Source of the DNA: Rhodobacter sp. SY28-1
Lineage (GTDB): Bacteria; Pseudomonadota; Alphaproteobacteria; Rhodobacterales; Rhodobacteraceae
Length of the DNA: 64,000 nt
Direction of reading: 5' to 3'
Assembly: GCF_005222785.1 (NCBI RefSeq)
Contig: NZ_STGH01000003.1
Span: 744,001-808,000 of the forward strand
The notes beneath the pieces were generated by a model. It searched no databases and was not told the DNA's origin. It saw only the letters and a program-made list of their open reading frames with translations. The stretch's first letter is position 1, and each line of letters begins with the position of its first letter. Both the position numbers and the translations under genes were made by a program. Of this stretch, positions 57,392-63,499 are shown piece after piece.

Positions 57392-57706
57392 CTAGTGCAG
57401 TTTGCAGAAGGTATCGCGCAGGACTGCCACGATCGCGGCCACTTCGGTGTTGGCAAGGTGGTAGTAGACGCTTTTTCCCTCGCGCCGGGTGGTGACGATC
57501 CCTTCGGCACGCAGCCGCATCAGTTGCTGCGAGACGCTGACCGGACTGGTGCCAAGCGCCTCGGCCAGTTGGGTGACGTTCAGATCGCCATCGACGAGGC
57601 AGCAGAGCATCTGCAGCCGCCCCTCGTGCGACAGCGACTTCAAGAGTGCCACCGCCTTCGCGGCCTGCGCGGCCGTTCCGCCGAAGCCTTCCAGAATCTC
57701 GGCCAT
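57392..57706 (-). CDS. ArsR-family regulator of the SqrR/BigR persulfide-sensor type
   Basis: A 104-residue winged-helix repressor. LLKSLSHEGRLQMLCCL, SVSQQLMRLRAEGIVTTRREGKSVYYHL and FCKLH follow the SqrR/BigR pattern. Cys35 (or Cys36) and Cys101 align with the two cysteines that form a polysulfide bridge in that group when reactive sulfur rises, releasing DNA. It is the last gene of an operon with sqr, DUF2892 and RND genes, the expected regulon. Metal-site ArsR motifs (CVC) are absent. Confidence 0.88.
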   Translation of the reverse strand: MAEILEGFGGTAAQAAKAVALLKSLSHEGRLQMLCCLVDGDLNVTQLAEALGTSPVSVSQQLMRLRAEGIVTTRREGKSVYYHLANTEVAAIVAVLRDTFCKLH

Positions 57707-57729
57707 CAGATGCTCCTACTCACCCGGTT

Positions 57730-57933
57730 TCATTCGAAGGCGCAGCCCTTCTTGACGCCCATCGCCCGGAACACCATCGCCGCCGGGCAGAAGCCGGTAA
57801 AGGACGATTGCAACAGGTTCAGACCTATGAAGACGGTGAACCAGACGAACAGGGGAGATACATAGGCGGTCAAGAGCACGCTGAGAAGCACCATGACCCC
57901 GGCAAAACGCAGAACGGCGGTATCGATCGACAT
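57730..57933 (-). CDS. DUF2892 small membrane protein
   Basis: A 67-residue protein with two hydrophobic helices, NLLQSSFTGFCPAAMVFRAMGV and GCAF at the C-terminus. This is the domain found at the membrane end of YgaP-type rhodanese proteins. The two conserved cysteines suggest that it handles sulfane sulfur. It sits between sqr and the persulfide-sensor gene, 3 nt after sqr. Confidence 0.85.
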   Translation of the reverse strand: MSIDTAVLRFAGVMVLLSVLLTAYVSPLFVWFTVFIGLNLLQSSFTGFCPAAMVFRAMGVKKGCAFE

Positions 57934-57936
57934 GAT

Positions 57937-59223
57937 TTATCCTTTCGTGGTTTCTTTAAGCTTGTCGATGCCAAGCACTTTCAGCGCGAGGCTTTCGTAG
58001 AAGGGCTCCGAGGTGCCTTTCCGCAGCTTGCGGATGAAGTATTTCTCGAAGCCCGCCTTGGCGAGGTGGACCCATTTCCCGCTGGACGACCAGTTGACAT
58101 TGCGGGGCGGGATCTGCGGTTGCGCGACAAAGGCGATGCCCCCGTCGCCGAAGTCGGCCAGGCAGACGGCGTTCCAGGTGCCGACGCTGTCGGGCTCTTT
58201 CCCGCGCACGATGTTGCCGATGTTGTGGGCGGTCGCCGTGACCATCGATTCAATCATGAACCCGGTCTTCGGTACGCCGCAGGGCACGGGCGTCGGCCCC
58301 ATCGGAGGGATCGCCACGCAGACGCCCACGGCGAAGACGTTCTTGTACTTCGGGTTCTGCTGGTGCTTGTCGACGATGGTGAAGCCGCGCGGATTGCTCA
58401 GGCCCTCGATCCCTGCGACCGGCTTGATGCCCCGGAAGGCGGGCAGCATCATCGAGAAGGCGAAGGGGAGGTCCTTTTCGGCCTTGACCTGACCATCCTC
58501 GCCCACTTCCTCCACGAACATGTGGCCGTCTTCGACCCGCTTGATACGGGTGTTGGTCATCCACTTGATGTGCTTCTCGCGCATCTGGGATTCGAGGAGG
58601 CCCTTGGTATCCCCTACCCCGTCCAGCCCCAGATGGCCGACGTAAGGCTCGGGGGTGACAAAGGTCATCGGCACCCGGTCGCGGATCTTGGCGCGGCGCA
58701 GCGCGGTTTCCAGGATGAAGAGGAACTCGTAGGCTGGGCCAAAGCAGCTGGCCCCCTGTGCCGCGCCGATGACGACCGGGCCGGGGTTGGCGAGAAGCTT
58801 TTCGAATACCGCCTTCGCCGACTCGGCATGGTCGATATGGCAGATTGACTGGGTGAAGCCGCCATGCGGACCCAGACCCGGAACCTCGTCAAAGGCCAGT
58901 TCCGGCCCTGTCGCAATCACGAGGTAGTCGTAGGCCACCGACTTGCCATCGACCAGCTCGATCCGGTTTTCCTCGGCATGCAGCTTTTCGGCGGCCACCG
59001 GGATGAAGTCGATCCCCTTCTTCTGCATGACTGGCGCCAGGTCCACCGTGATATCCTCGCGGTCGCGCCAGCCGACGGCAATCCAGGGGTTCGAGGGCAC
59101 GAAGTGATACTTCGGGTCCTTGGTGACCACCGTCACCTTGTCTTCGGGCCTGAGCTGGTCCTTCAGCTCGTAAGCCATGATGGCGCCGCCAAGTCCGGCC
59201 CCGAGTACAACGACATGTGCCAT
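57937..59223 (-). CDS. sqr: Sulfide:quinone oxidoreductase
   Basis: A 428-residue FAD protein at the membrane surface that oxidises sulfide to polysulfide or persulfide and reduces ubiquinone. The FAD site is VVLGAGLGGAI, followed by VPSNPWIAVGW. All three SQR cysteines are present: Cys128 (SICHI), Cys160 (GASCFGPAYEF) and Cys354 (NAVCLADFG). KTGFMIESM and a C-terminal amphipathic segment KYFIRKLRKG also fit. An extra Cys315 occurs in VPCGVPKTG. The arrangement resembles the Aquifex-type I enzyme. Confidence 0.92.
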   Translation of the reverse strand: MAHVVVLGAGLGGAIMAYELKDQLRPEDKVTVVTKDPKYHFVPSNPWIAVGWRDREDITVDLAPVMQKKGIDFIPVAAEKLHAEENRIELVDGKSVAYDYLVIATGPELAFDEVPGLGPHGGFTQSICHIDHAESAKAVFEKLLANPGPVVIGAAQGASCFGPAYEFLFILETALRRAKIRDRVPMTFVTPEPYVGHLGLDGVGDTKGLLESQMREKHIKWMTNTRIKRVEDGHMFVEEVGEDGQVKAEKDLPFAFSMMLPAFRGIKPVAGIEGLSNPRGFTIVDKHQQNPKYKNVFAVGVCVAIPPMGPTPVPCGVPKTGFMIESMVTATAHNIGNIVRGKEPDSVGTWNAVCLADFGDGGIAFVAQPQIPPRNVNWSSSGKWVHLAKAGFEKYFIRKLRKGTSEPFYESLALKVLGIDKLKETTKG

Positions 59224-59241
59224 TTCAGTCTCCTCCTCTGA

Positions 59242-62200
59242 TCAGGCTGTGGCGTCTGTCGCCGTGCCCGCCTCAGTGCGGAACACGCGGTAGATCGCCG
59301 GGATGACAAGGACGGTCAGCAGGGTCGAACTCAGCAGACCGAACAGCAGGGAAATCGCGAGACCCTGGAAGATCGGGTCCGCCAGGATCACCACCGCGCC
59401 GATCATGGCGGCGATGGCGGTCAGAAGGATCGGCTTGAACCGGATCGCCCCGGCCTCGATCAAGAGATCCACGGTCACCGTGTCCCCCTTTCCGTGGCGG
59501 ATGAAGTCCACCAGCAGGATTGAGTTGCGCACGATGATCCCGGCCAGCGCAATGAAGCCGATCATTGACGTGGCCGAAAACGGGGCGCCGAACAGCCAGT
59601 GGCCCAGCATGATCCCGAGGAAAGTCAAAGGGATCGGCGTGAGAATCACCAGCGGCAGCTTGAACGACCCGAACTGCGCCACGACCAGGATGTAGATGCC
59701 CAGAAGTGCAATACCGAAGGCCGCCCCCATGTCGCGGAAGGTGACGAAGGTCACTTCCCATTCGCCGTCCCAGAGGAGGGTCACCTTACCCTCGTCCTCG
59801 GGCTGACCGTGGAGCGAAATCTCGGGCTTGGTGCCTTCGGGCCAGTCCATCTGTTCGATCTGGTCGGCGACGGCGAGCATCCCGTAAAGCGGAGCCTCGA
59901 ACGCGCCCGCCAGTTCGGCGGTGACCATCTCGGCATCGCGACCGTTGTGGCGGAAGATCGGGAAGCTTGCCGCTTCTTCCTCGATGCGGATGACGTCGCC
60001 GAGTTCGACCACGCCGCGCGCGCCAGGTAGGGCGTTGGCGGGGATGGGTGTGGTCAGGAAGCGTTCGTCCAGCACCCGGTCCGACTTGTCACGACCGACG
60101 ACCAGCGGGATCGGCAGGCGGCCTTCGCCCCGGTGGGAGTAGCCCACGGTCTGGCCGCCATTCAGAAGAGCCAGCGTGTCGAACACGTCCTGCTCCTGCA
60201 CGGCATAGAAATCGAGGTCGTCCGAGGAAATCGTCGCCCGCAGCCGCCGCGCCTGTTCGCCAAAACTGTCGTCCACGTCCACGATGAACGGCACCGCTTC
60301 GAACGCCTGCCGAATGAGACGCGCCGCTTCGCGCCGAGTTTCAGCATCGGGTCCATAGACCTCGGCCAGAAGGGTCGAGATCACCGGCGGCCCGGGCGGC
60401 GGCTCCACCACCTTCAGGCTGGTCCCGGCAGGCACCGAAAGGTCGGCGAGCCGCTCGCGCAGGTCAAGCGCGATGTCATGGCTTGCGCGGTCACGGTCGG
60501 TCTTCGGCGTCAGGTTGATCGCAACCTCGCCCAGCTGCGGTTCGGACCGCAGGTAGTAGTGCCGCACCAACCCGTTGAAGTTGAACGGCGCGGGCGTCCC
60601 GGCATAGGTCTGCACGGAAGTAACTTCTTCCAGGCCCATCACCACATCCGCCACATCCCGCGCCACCCGGTCCGTCGCCTCGATGGAGGAGCCTTCGGGC
60701 AGGTCGATTACCACCGACAGCTCTGACTTGTTGTCGAAGGGCAGCAACTTCACCGTCACGTCCCGTGTATAAAGCGCCGCCAGCGAGCCGAAGGACAGGG
60801 CCGCCGTGACAAGCAGGAACCCGAGGCTGCGGCCCTTGGACTTCAGGATCGGCCTTGCCACCGCCGTGTAGCTGCGCTCCAGCCAGCCGCCGTGATGGCC
60901 GCCGTATTCGTCATCCTGCGCGTGGTCGTGCATATCCGCGCGGCCGGCGATCTTGACCATCAGCCAGGGCGTGATGATGACCGCGACGAAGAAGGAAAAG
61001 ATCATCGCGGCGCTGGCATTGGCCGGGATCGGCGACATGTAGGGGCCCATCAGCCCGCTGACGAAGAGCATGGGCAGAAGCGCCACCACCACCGTCAGCG
61101 TCGCCACGATGGTCGGGTTGCCGACCTCGGCCACCGCCTCGATGGCGGCCTGAATCCGCGGCTTGCGGCGGTCCATGCCCCAGTGGCGGTCGATGTTCTC
61201 GATCACGACGATGGCGTCATCGACCAGGATGCCGATGGAGAAGATGAGCGCGAAGAGCGACACCCGGTTCAGCGTGAAGCCCATGACCCAGGCTGCGAAC
61301 AGCGTGAGCAGGATCGTCACCGGGATCACGATGGCGACCACGCCCGCCTCGCGCCAGCCGATGGCCAGCCACACCAGCAGGATGATCGACACCGTCGCCA
61401 GGCCCAGGTGGAACAGCAGTTCATTGGCCTTCTCGTTCGCCGTCTCGCCGTAGTCGCGGGTGATCGTCACCGTCACGCCTTCGGGGATCAGCTTGTCTTC
61501 CAGGGCATGGACCCGGTGCAGCACCGCCTCGGCCACCACCACCGCATTCGCCCCTGCCCGCTTGGCAATCGCCAGCGTCACCGCCGGGCCACCCGCCCCG
61601 TCCTTCGCCAGATGCGAGACGATGGCGTCCCTGGAGTTCTCGACATAAGCCACCGTCGCCACGTCCGAGACATAGACCGGGCGGCCGTCCCGCGTGGTCA
61701 GGAGGAGATGCTCGACTTCCGCCGGAGCGGTCAGCGTCTCGCCCGCCACGAGGTCCACCATCTGGCCCTGATCGCGCAGCTTCCCGGTGTTCAGCGTGCG
61801 GTTCGCCTGAGCGACCTTGCCCGCCAGCTGTTGCAGCGTCACGCCATAGAGCGCCAGCCGGTCCGGGTCGGGTTCAATCCGGATCGCGTCCTGCGCGTCG
61901 CCGACAAGGTAGGTCAGGCCCACATCTTCGGTCTTTGCCACCTCGGTCTGCAAGGTGCGGGCGATGCGGGTCAGGTCGTTGGCCGTCATGTCCTCGGCGG
62001 ACAGGGTCAGGGTCAGGATCGCCACGTCGTCGATGCCCCGGCCCACGATCAGGGGTTCGGGGATGCCGACCGGGATTGCGCCCATGTTCGCGCGCACCTT
62101 GTCATGCACCCGCAGGATCGCATCTTCGGACCGGGTGCCGACCTCGAACCGCGCGGTCACCATCGCGGCATCGTCGCGCGTGGAAGAATAGACATGCTCG

Positions 62201-62454
62201 ACGTCGTTGATGCCCTTGACGATGACCTCCAGCGGCTCGGTCACCAGCTTGACCGCGTCCTCGGCCTTCAGCCCCTGTGCCATCACATGGATGTCGACCA
62301 AGGGGACCGAAATCTGCGGCTCCTCCTCGCGCGGCAGGCTGATGAGCGCGACGACGCCCGCCGCCAATGCCGCGAGGATGAACAAGGGGGTCAGGGCCGA
62401 GGCGATGAACGCCTTTGTCAGTCCCCCGGCAAGTCCGAGCGGATGCTTACTCAT
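59242..62454 (-). CDS. RND-family efflux pump
   Basis: A 1070-residue inner-membrane transporter of the AcrB/HAE superfamily. It has 12 helices and two large periplasmic loops. The proton-relay aspartates are Asp412-Asp413 in GILVDDAIVV. Its start overlaps the membrane-fusion protein gene by 8 nt and its stop is 18 nt before sqr. No outer-membrane channel gene is present. In this context it probably exports a sulfur compound or a toxic product of sulfide oxidation; that is inference. Confidence 0.92.
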   Translation of the reverse strand: MSKHPLGLAGGLTKAFIASALTPLFILAALAAGVVALISLPREEEPQISVPLVDIHVMAQGLKAEDAVKLVTEPLEVIVKGINDVEHVYSSTRDDAAMVTARFEVGTRSEDAILRVHDKVRANMGAIPVGIPEPLIVGRGIDDVAILTLTLSAEDMTANDLTRIARTLQTEVAKTEDVGLTYLVGDAQDAIRIEPDPDRLALYGVTLQQLAGKVAQANRTLNTGKLRDQGQMVDLVAGETLTAPAEVEHLLLTTRDGRPVYVSDVATVAYVENSRDAIVSHLAKDGAGGPAVTLAIAKRAGANAVVVAEAVLHRVHALEDKLIPEGVTVTITRDYGETANEKANELLFHLGLATVSIILLVWLAIGWREAGVVAIVIPVTILLTLFAAWVMGFTLNRVSLFALIFSIGILVDDAIVVIENIDRHWGMDRRKPRIQAAIEAVAEVGNPTIVATLTVVVALLPMLFVSGLMGPYMSPIPANASAAMIFSFFVAVIITPWLMVKIAGRADMHDHAQDDEYGGHHGGWLERSYTAVARPILKSKGRSLGFLLVTAALSFGSLAALYTRDVTVKLLPFDNKSELSVVIDLPEGSSIEATDRVARDVADVVMGLEEVTSVQTYAGTPAPFNFNGLVRHYYLRSEPQLGEVAINLTPKTDRDRASHDIALDLRERLADLSVPAGTSLKVVEPPPGPPVISTLLAEVYGPDAETRREAARLIRQAFEAVPFIVDVDDSFGEQARRLRATISSDDLDFYAVQEQDVFDTLALLNGGQTVGYSHRGEGRLPIPLVVGRDKSDRVLDERFLTTPIPANALPGARGVVELGDVIRIEEEAASFPIFRHNGRDAEMVTAELAGAFEAPLYGMLAVADQIEQMDWPEGTKPEISLHGQPEDEGKVTLLWDGEWEVTFVTFRDMGAAFGIALLGIYILVVAQFGSFKLPLVILTPIPLTFLGIMLGHWLFGAPFSATSMIGFIALAGIIVRNSILLVDFIRHGKGDTVTVDLLIEAGAIRFKPILLTAIAAMIGAVVILADPIFQGLAISLLFGLLSSTLLTVLVIPAIYRVFRTEAGTATDATA

Positions 62455-63442
62455 GGCTCACCTCGGAGGCTGAGACGACCACGTCACCGGCAGTCAGACC
62501 GCTGAGGACCTCGACCATCTCGACCCCGTCGACGATCCGTACGACGCCCGGCACGATGGACTGCAGGACCGGCCCTTCCGCCCCCTGCACACTGACAAAA
62601 TCCAGACCCGACCGGGTCAGCACATCTGCTTTCGGCACCAGAAGCGCTTCACGTTCCCCCACCGGCAGACGCACTAGCATCCGCGCGCCGACAAAGGTGT
62701 CGGGCAGGCCCGCGATTTCGACATCGGCGACGACGCGGCCGCCCTCGATCAGCGGATAGACCCGGGCGAGCGTCCCGGTCAGGTCGCCGGATGCGCCCGA
62801 AACCTGGATCGCATCCCCGGTCTGCAGTGCCGTCGCATGGCGTTCCGGCACTGCGATCCGCAGGTAGGTGCCGCCGCCACCGATCACTGCAACGACCTCG
62901 CCAGGCATCAGGACCGCGCCTTTGGTCAGCGGCACGTCAAGGACGCGACCTGCGACCGGGGACAGCACGACCCCCTCTTTCGCCTGTTGCGCCACCACAT
63001 CAGCTTGCGCCACGAGCGAGGCGATCTGGCCCTTCAGCACATCGACTTGCGTCCGCAAGGCATCAACGCGCTGGGTCGTGGTGACCCCGTTCTTCAACAG
63101 GTCCTCGCCGCGCTGCAGGTCCGCCTCGGCATTGGTCAACTGTGCTGCCAGCGCCTGTTGCTGGGCCGACAGCGCCGCAAGCTGGAAGTCGAGTTTGTCA
63201 TCGACGATCCGGGCCAGAACCTGCCCGGCCGTCACCTCGTCACCCTCGGCCACCGTCAACTCGACCAGGGTTCCCCCGATCCGCGCCCGGGCCGGACTGC
63301 GATCACGCGCTTCCACGGTTCCGAAGACCGCTTTCCAGTCGGTGACCGTGACCGGCGCCAGCGTGAGAGGGTCGGCGGAAACCGGGAGGACGCTTGATCC
63401 GAGGATGGCGCAGAGGAGCAGTGCAGGAGACAGGCGGGGCAT
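62447..63442 (-). CDS. RND efflux periplasmic adaptor (membrane-fusion protein)
   Basis: A 331-residue adaptor. A signal peptide (LLLCAILGSSVLPVSA) is followed by the lipoyl half-motif ARIGGTLVELTVAEGDEV, a coiled-coil hairpin (about 80-130) and the second half VLSPVAGRVLDVPLTKG, then beta-barrel and membrane-proximal domains. The ATG at 63442 has GGAGCC upstream. It is the first gene of the sqr operon, 28 nt downstream of a palindrome-containing promoter. Confidence 0.92.
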   Translation of the reverse strand: MPRLSPALLLCAILGSSVLPVSADPLTLAPVTVTDWKAVFGTVEARDRSPARARIGGTLVELTVAEGDEVTAGQVLARIVDDKLDFQLAALSAQQQALAAQLTNAEADLQRGEDLLKNGVTTTQRVDALRTQVDVLKGQIASLVAQADVVAQQAKEGVVLSPVAGRVLDVPLTKGAVLMPGEVVAVIGGGGTYLRIAVPERHATALQTGDAIQVSGASGDLTGTLARVYPLIEGGRVVADVEIAGLPDTFVGARMLVRLPVGEREALLVPKADVLTRSGLDFVSVQGAEGPVLQSIVPGVVRIVDGVEMVEVLSGLTAGDVVVSASEVSHE

Positions 63443-63469
63443 GGGGGAGGCTCCAATTCTATTTGTATA

Positions 63470-63499
63470 TCTATAAAGCTTTGAAGCTATATAATGCAA
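63470..63499 (-). promoter_or_regulatory. Promoter and operator of the RND-sqr operon
   Basis: Minus-strand TTGCAT (63499-63494), 18-nt spacer, TATAGA (63475-63470). A 22-bp AT-rich dyad, TATAAAGCTT-TG-AAGCTATATA on the plus strand (63472-63493, 9 of 10 pairs), fills the spacer and reaches the -10. This is the position expected for repression by the ArsR-type protein encoded at the operon end. Confidence 0.6.

Follow-up and report, generated by a model that had tools for sequence, protein, structure and literature searches.

Gene content and predicted control of the operon

The window, by which we mean the whole 64,000-nucleotide stretch of Rhodobacter sp. SY28-1 DNA that was analysed, carries five genes between 57392 and 63442 on the minus strand. 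The original prediction read them as MFP-RND-sqr-DUF2892-arsR on one strand with overlaps or short gaps, and this layout is borne out: the MFP and RND frames overlap by 8 nt and are followed by gaps of 18 nt (RND-SQR), 3 nt (SQR-DUF2892) and 23 nt (DUF2892-ArsR), so that no gap exceeds 23 nt. Judged by this spacing, the five genes would form one transcript. Pfam and NCBIfam assign their products to the HlyD/RND_mfp, ACR_tran, Pyr_redox_2, YgaP-like_TM and HTH_5 families, respectively. The MFP (62447-63442, minus strand) is a periplasmic adaptor subunit of 331 residues, matched by HlyD_D23 and by TIGR01730 RND_mfp at 107.5 bits (cut-off 94.9), a scan that used the frame from 63445, one codon longer than the ATG start at 63442. 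The RND permease (59242-62454, minus strand) has 1070 residues, a DD motif at D412-D413 and no cysteine at all, and matches PF00873 ACR_tran at 489 bits. There is no gene for an outer-membrane factor within the operon, and the search for TolC-type genes in the same genome found one frame, far off on the same contig. The genome gave one SQR match and three other RND loci, whose paralogues are 26-31% identical to the permease.

The oxidoreductase and the regulator were assigned from solved relatives and conserved cysteines, and here too the original prediction, which had claimed all three SQR cysteines and the SqrR/BigR cysteine pair, has stood up well. The oxidoreductase (57937-59223, minus strand; 428 residues) matches over its full length the solved SQR 3sz0 (E 3e-158), which we take to be the Acidithiobacillus enzyme, and is predicted to be a type I sulfide:quinone oxidoreductase (SQR). 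Its C128, C160 and C354, presumably the type I redox set, are invariant in 43 of 43 sequences, made up of the window's own and 42 pump-linked SQRs. The DUF2892 or YgaP-like transmembrane protein (57730-57933, minus strand; 67 residues; PF11127 at 41.2 bits against a gathering score of 25.3) has a cysteine, C49, that is invariant in 58 of 58 sequences. In the ArsR/SqrR/BigR-type regulator (57392-57706, minus strand; 104 residues), C35 and C101 fall at positions where the best PDB match, the ArsR-family 13ct/6o8l (E 2e-22), which we take to be SqrR, also has cysteines, and both are kept in 40 of the 51 ArsRs near pumps, SoxR-like ones counted in. The NF040642 BigR model gives 80.1 bits, below its cut-off of 155; the protein is predicted to resemble a SqrR/BigR-type sensor, yet is not filed as BigR. 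The genome encodes a second SqrR-like ArsR (L187:8773-9120) that, by eye, lacks the usual C-terminal cysteine and has one about six residues earlier. We rejected it as the regulator of the operon on the serine seen by eye at the position equivalent to C101, which makes the operon-linked ArsR the better candidate.

The frame of the MFP opens at TTG 63499, the start noted earlier, whereas the codon model picks ATG 63442, where a GGAG lies upstream and the N-terminus looks signal-like by eye. The gene probably starts at this ATG, which places the AT-rich dyad claimed for the promoter upstream of the MFP gene and not within it. That dyad was found at 63472-63493 (minus strand) as TATAAAGCTTTGAAGCTATATA, an imperfect repeat with an extra base in one arm, and is a putative operator. 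Its half-site AAGCTTTATA recurs with at most one mismatch in 10 of the 13 linked-group upstream stretches (0.4% of shuffles), and a promoter-like pair, TTGCAW-N16-18-TATR, in 7 of the 13 (0.2% of shuffles), although both shuffle rates flatter the patterns because these were picked from the same sequences. In the window the pair would consist of a -35-like TTGCAT (63494-63499) and a -10-like TATAGA (63470-63475), both on the minus strand, and the dyad fills the spacer, so that a repressor sitting between -35 and -10 would be the simple reading of the putative operator. A generic sigma-70 scan picked another pair, at 63485-63456, one being found against 0.9 by chance.

Association of the pump with sulfur genes and SqrR sites

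The tie between the pump and sulfur genes is conserved and is not due to chance. Twenty loci were fetched of 24 same-class or same-family matches (59-77% identity, flanks of about 8 kb, two shortened by contig ends) and set against 23 control RND loci, namely the three own-genome paralogues and 20 other RND loci that were hand-picked, one per genome, 19 of them from the same genomes plus one. With linkage thresholds of our own choosing, SQR, DUF2892 or ArsR lies within about 8 kb of the pump at 19 of the 20 same-class loci and at none of the 23 controls, where each of these families scored 0/23, and this comparison rules out chance linkage. By family, the same-class loci have SQR in 14, DUF2892 and ArsR in 16 each, rhodanese in 6 and a TolC-type gene in 5 of the 20.

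Across a broader range of relatives the association is looser. A match to the RND at E ≤1e-120 was found in 148 of 299 genomes drawn from the phylum. The close set comprised the best 80 relatives in a scan of named genomes, with titles mostly from Rhodobacterales; their neighbours include SQR in 21, DUF2892 in 26 and ArsR in 24, and 44 of the 80 lack all four of SQR, DUF2892, ArsR and rhodanese inside 6 kb of the pump. Among distant loci (39-45% identity, 17 genomes, hand-picked), at least one of these four families was present at 9 of 20 and none at 11. In the set of 49 wider loci, the rhodanese family lies beside the pump in 12 and a TolC-type family near it in 7 (the one member scanned being OEP). 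These locus counts are not independent, since near-copies exist (L063 equals L064 in the results), and some contigs end close to the pump, for example L067, L074 and L077. Plasmid records with an RND match number 53, and of the nine inspected several sulfur genes stand near the pump in Paracoccus denitrificans, Agrobacterium, Azospirillum, Nitratireductor, Asticcacaulis, Sphingomonas (with TolC) and Methylocella; a Vibrio plasmid has DUF2892 alone and a Shinella plasmid none of these genes. On the latter (L124, pShin-07) a shortened MFP and the RND adjoin TetR, ABC and P-type ATPase genes, showing that the pump can occur without sulfur genes.

A sox-like cluster follows the pump in 8 of the best 80 relatives (L036, L038, L041, L051, L059, L060, L061 and L069); SoxX, SoxY and SoxZ scored over their cut-offs in L036, the sole sox-linked locus scanned. 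At these eight loci a SoxR-like ArsR and a YeeE/TsuA-like protein stand between MFP-RND and the sox-like cluster.

Where SQR does accompany the pump, its placement varies: of 42 such loci, 20 have it on the pump's strand and downstream, 13 upstream on the opposite strand and 9 upstream on the same strand. Mapped on an unrooted FastTree tree of 126 rows, which left out 4 of the best 80 relatives, the arrangement changes 17 times, a figure drawn over long branches in which gains and losses are indistinguishable. At three loci (L117 in P. denitrificans, L118 in Agrobacterium, and L129) the neighbour is an SQR-like protein of another type; the one scanned, from L117, reached 204 bits on the type III SQR model (cut-off 525). 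This swap of the SQR partner for an analogue speaks for a functional tie. We also took 36 of the 59 loci without an SQR neighbour, 35 of them in searchable genomes, and looked for type I SQR elsewhere: it was present in 20 of these 35 genomes, and in the other 15, several of which are draft assemblies, there was no match at E 1e-80. Of those 15 genomes, 13 have SoxY and 14 a Cys-pair ArsR.

The promoters of the relatives were a second source of evidence. The deduced SqrR site has been given as ATTC-N8-GAAT (PMC9774250), a motif that was first noticed in the upstream stretches and then counted. The counted region was the 280 nt around each MFP start, and 6 of the best 80 relatives were dropped for having no usable start. 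The exact site lies upstream of the MFP in 26 of the 47 unlinked or sox-linked loci among the best relatives (0.7% of first-order shuffles). By group, loci lacking a sulfur neighbour within 5 kb carry it in 20 of 41 cases, sox-linked loci in 6 of 6, SQR-linked loci in 1 of 21 and DUF2892/ArsR-linked loci in none of 7; with one mismatch these become 34/41, 6/6, 4/21 and 3/7 (11.9% of shuffles). In one of the 20 unlinked loci with an exact site (L068), the site falls within the MFP gene, 9 nt past the start that was picked. At other genes of the same loci the exact site was found in 19 of 1246 cases, 14 of which fall in two families mostly facing the MFP across the same gap. Of 19 full-length loci of an unlinked type I sqr, 5 have the exact site in the promoter of that gene. 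The window's own 280-nt stretch does not contain the site within one mismatch. Two wider readings of the site were rejected. As a general feature of the pump it fails, the exact site being present in just 2 of the 49 wider loci (600-nt stretches), and as a common sox-promoter operator it fails at all eight soxS-soxV gaps, none of which has it within one mismatch. In the window's own genome (G000) the motif occurs at 22 places, 9 of which are the identical perfect palindrome ATTCCTTCGAAGGAAT; this resembles a repeated element or the site of another regulator.

Possible cargo of the pump

The permease meets the HAE-type traits of an ACR_tran match and a DD motif, which is the drug-pump type of RND, and D412, D413 and R976 are invariant in 45 aligned permease rows. 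It nevertheless falls below every named NCBIfam RND cut-off listed, drug or metal, the best score being 422 against 1250 bits, and the CusA/CzcA metal-RND model TIGR00914 gives 247 bits against a cut-off of 701. The solved chains closest to it by profile are multidrug pumps, MexK and others with efflux-pump names. RND pumps are often promiscuous, and many are filed as multidrug by default. The predicted structure (mean pLDDT 66, pTM 0.51) is too poor for a reading of the pocket. The original prediction was to fall if RND homologues occurred mostly apart from sqr and clustered with antibiotic or metal pumps, and about half of this was seen: sqr adjoins the pump in only 21 of the best 80 relatives and the closest solved chains are multidrug, but the permease lies under all of the named cut-offs.

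Taken together with the genomic context, we give roughly even chances to the operon being a sulfide/persulfide response operon under ArsR control, in which SQR makes and the pump expels sulfane sulfur. It is the conserved linkage to sulfur genes, with the SqrR sites in the relatives' pump promoters, that leads us to place the pump in the sulfane-sulfur response. Judging by homology and position, ArsR would occupy the dyad in the spacer of the -35 and -10 elements and block the promoter. By homology, sulfane sulfur would bridge C35 and C101 through a polysulfide link, releasing the repressor from DNA. SQR, if it behaves as its homologues do, would oxidise sulfide, pass the electrons to quinone and yield polysulfide or S0, and DUF2892 may assist as a membrane thiol protein. 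In what is the weakest step, MFP-RND may work with a shared TolC to pick up a form of sulfane sulfur, be it polysulfide, S0 or a small persulfide, in the periplasm or at the outer leaflet of the inner membrane, and to expel it. The strong expression of an RND-SQR operon under H2S in Azospira suillum (PMC5358917) also speaks for this reading. The pump probably expels a toxic sulfur product, with polysulfide, S0 or persulfide as our best guess at its cargo, and a sulfur cargo is favoured because of the pump's sulfur neighbours and operators.

Of the earlier idea of a sensing, oxidation and export module, the Cys-pair ArsR, the SQR and an RND with a conserved sulfur tie (19/20 loci against 0/23, and the SqrR site in 26/47) have survived, whereas a pump specifically for the SQR product is not supported. 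Given that a type I SQR match was missing from 15 of the 35 searched genomes whose pump stands apart from SQR, the SQR product is unlikely to be the sole cargo and a strict SQR-only pump is disfavoured; as 13 of those 15 have SoxY and 14 a Cys-pair ArsR, sulfane-sulfur species in general are favoured over the SQR product alone. Several points count against the response-operon reading, namely these 15 genomes, that the operon has no outer-membrane factor, that its own promoter lacks the SqrR consensus, that the exact SqrR site is in just 2 of the 49 wider loci, and that 44 of the 80 best and 11 of the 20 distant loci have none of the four sulfur families close by. The unchanged rate of H2S oxidation after deletion of the Azospira operon (PMC5358917) and the frequent promiscuity of RND pumps count against it too. 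A more specific and distinctly tentative form of it is that a distinct RND subfamily, to which this pump would belong, has evolved to export zero-valent sulfur. By its topology, type I SQR releases its product at the periplasmic face of the membrane; polysulfide or S8 freed there might partition into the membrane and be scooped out by the pump via TolC. If this were so, an RND would have an inorganic, membrane-loving sulfur chain as its cargo, which would offer a route to extracellular sulfur formation.

The same 15 genomes also speak for a possible but somewhat unlikely alternative, in which the pump protects the envelope in general, sulfane sulfur being just the alarm and the cargo assorted hydrophobic toxicants or damaged metabolites of sulfide stress. 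The kinship by profile with MexK and other named efflux pumps fits such a role, as do reports that sulfane sulfur acts on two repressors, MarR and MexR, of a kind frequently linked with genes for drug resistance. The linkage to SQR, DUF2892 and rhodanese, the SqrR sites and the count of 0/23 for other RNDs point, however, to a narrower one. Export of oxidised, soluble products such as thiosulfate or sulfite, or of a persulfide of the glutathione type, we consider improbable. The sox-linked pumps in 8 of the best 80 relatives (Sox names scanned in L036 alone), the rhodanese family adjoining the pump in 12 of the 49 wider loci and a TauE-type family in 3 of those 49 (one member scanned) would suit such export, but small anions are unusual as RND cargo. 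Moreover, other carriers are named for these compounds, TauE for sulfite export and SoxT/PmpAB for import (PMC12423496).

Metal genes do occur near the pump, in the form of families that we take to be P-type-ATPase-like (2 of the 49 wider loci) and cation-diffusion-like (3 of the best 80 relatives) and of the P-type ATPase annotated on the Shinella plasmid, but they are far rarer there than SQR or DUF2892, and the DD motif is that of drug pumps. Export of metals or metal-sulfide complexes arising where sulfide meets metals, which the Azospira suillum authors suggested for RND pumps raised under sulfide (PMC5358917), is very doubtful here, the permease having no cysteine and scoring far below the CusA/CzcA cut-off.

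Comparison with described systems

A response operon that expels sulfane sulfur would bear on what is, to our knowledge, still an open question, namely the bacterial route for moving sulfane sulfur out of the cell. Our literature search, with subscription literature mostly outside its scope, gave no study, among the matches listed, in which we recognised a test of export by a pump of this kind. Azospira suillum is a Betaproteobacterium. In its strain PS, the operon Dsui_3440-3443, which encodes an efflux pump, SQR and MFP, stood out in Bar-seq and was strongly expressed under H2S, and a DUF2892 gene was among the most abundant transcripts; deletion of the operon left the rate of H2S oxidation unchanged (PMC5358917). 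Likened by its description, this operon resembles that of the window in combining RND pump, MFP and SQR in one H2S-expressed unit, but it is listed as unknown protein, pump, SQR and MFP, with no ArsR named in that account. In a single sentence, Li et al. 2025 state that Cys-pair ArsRs seem to have among their targets RND pumps that are likely to move sulfur compounds (PMC12423496), which is the pairing seen here; the section concerned gives no RND subfamily, operator or control. The SqrR regulon of Rhodobacter capsulatus likewise has a Cys-pair ArsR repressor, SQR as a target and the ATTC-N8-GAAT site that we found in relatives of the window (PMC9774250), but the operator candidate in the window is a different dyad and that account, as far as it was available, names no RND target for SqrR. 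The bigR operon of Xylella and Agrobacterium is similar in placing a BigR repressor over an H2S-oxidation operon, and differs in the Blh sulfur transferase/dioxygenase it encodes, no RND pump being named in the parts available (PMC5823870).

A relative of the RND, 72% identical, is present in Paracoccus denitrificans PD1222, where the pump goes under PDEN_RS23380 and RS23385. This group of pumps has a sulfide address and, in many promoters, a published operator, which together with the PD1222 relative makes the question of cargo directly testable; we would also caution that such pumps should not be tallied as drug-resistance genes from their name alone. On P. denitrificans plasmid 1 (L117:719-11021) the pump lies in a sulfur island with an MBL-fold hydrolase, two DUF2892 proteins, YeeE, DUF6691, a sulfur transferase, an ArsR, cytochromes, the type III SQR-like oxidoreductase and DUF5368. 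In L117, L118 and L129 a member of the DUF5368 family adjoins the pump and the type III SQR-like gene, and this family possibly acts together with that SQR. A small carboxymuconolactone decarboxylase family is found near the pump in 6 of the 49 wider loci, for example at L132:11230-11583 (one member scanned).
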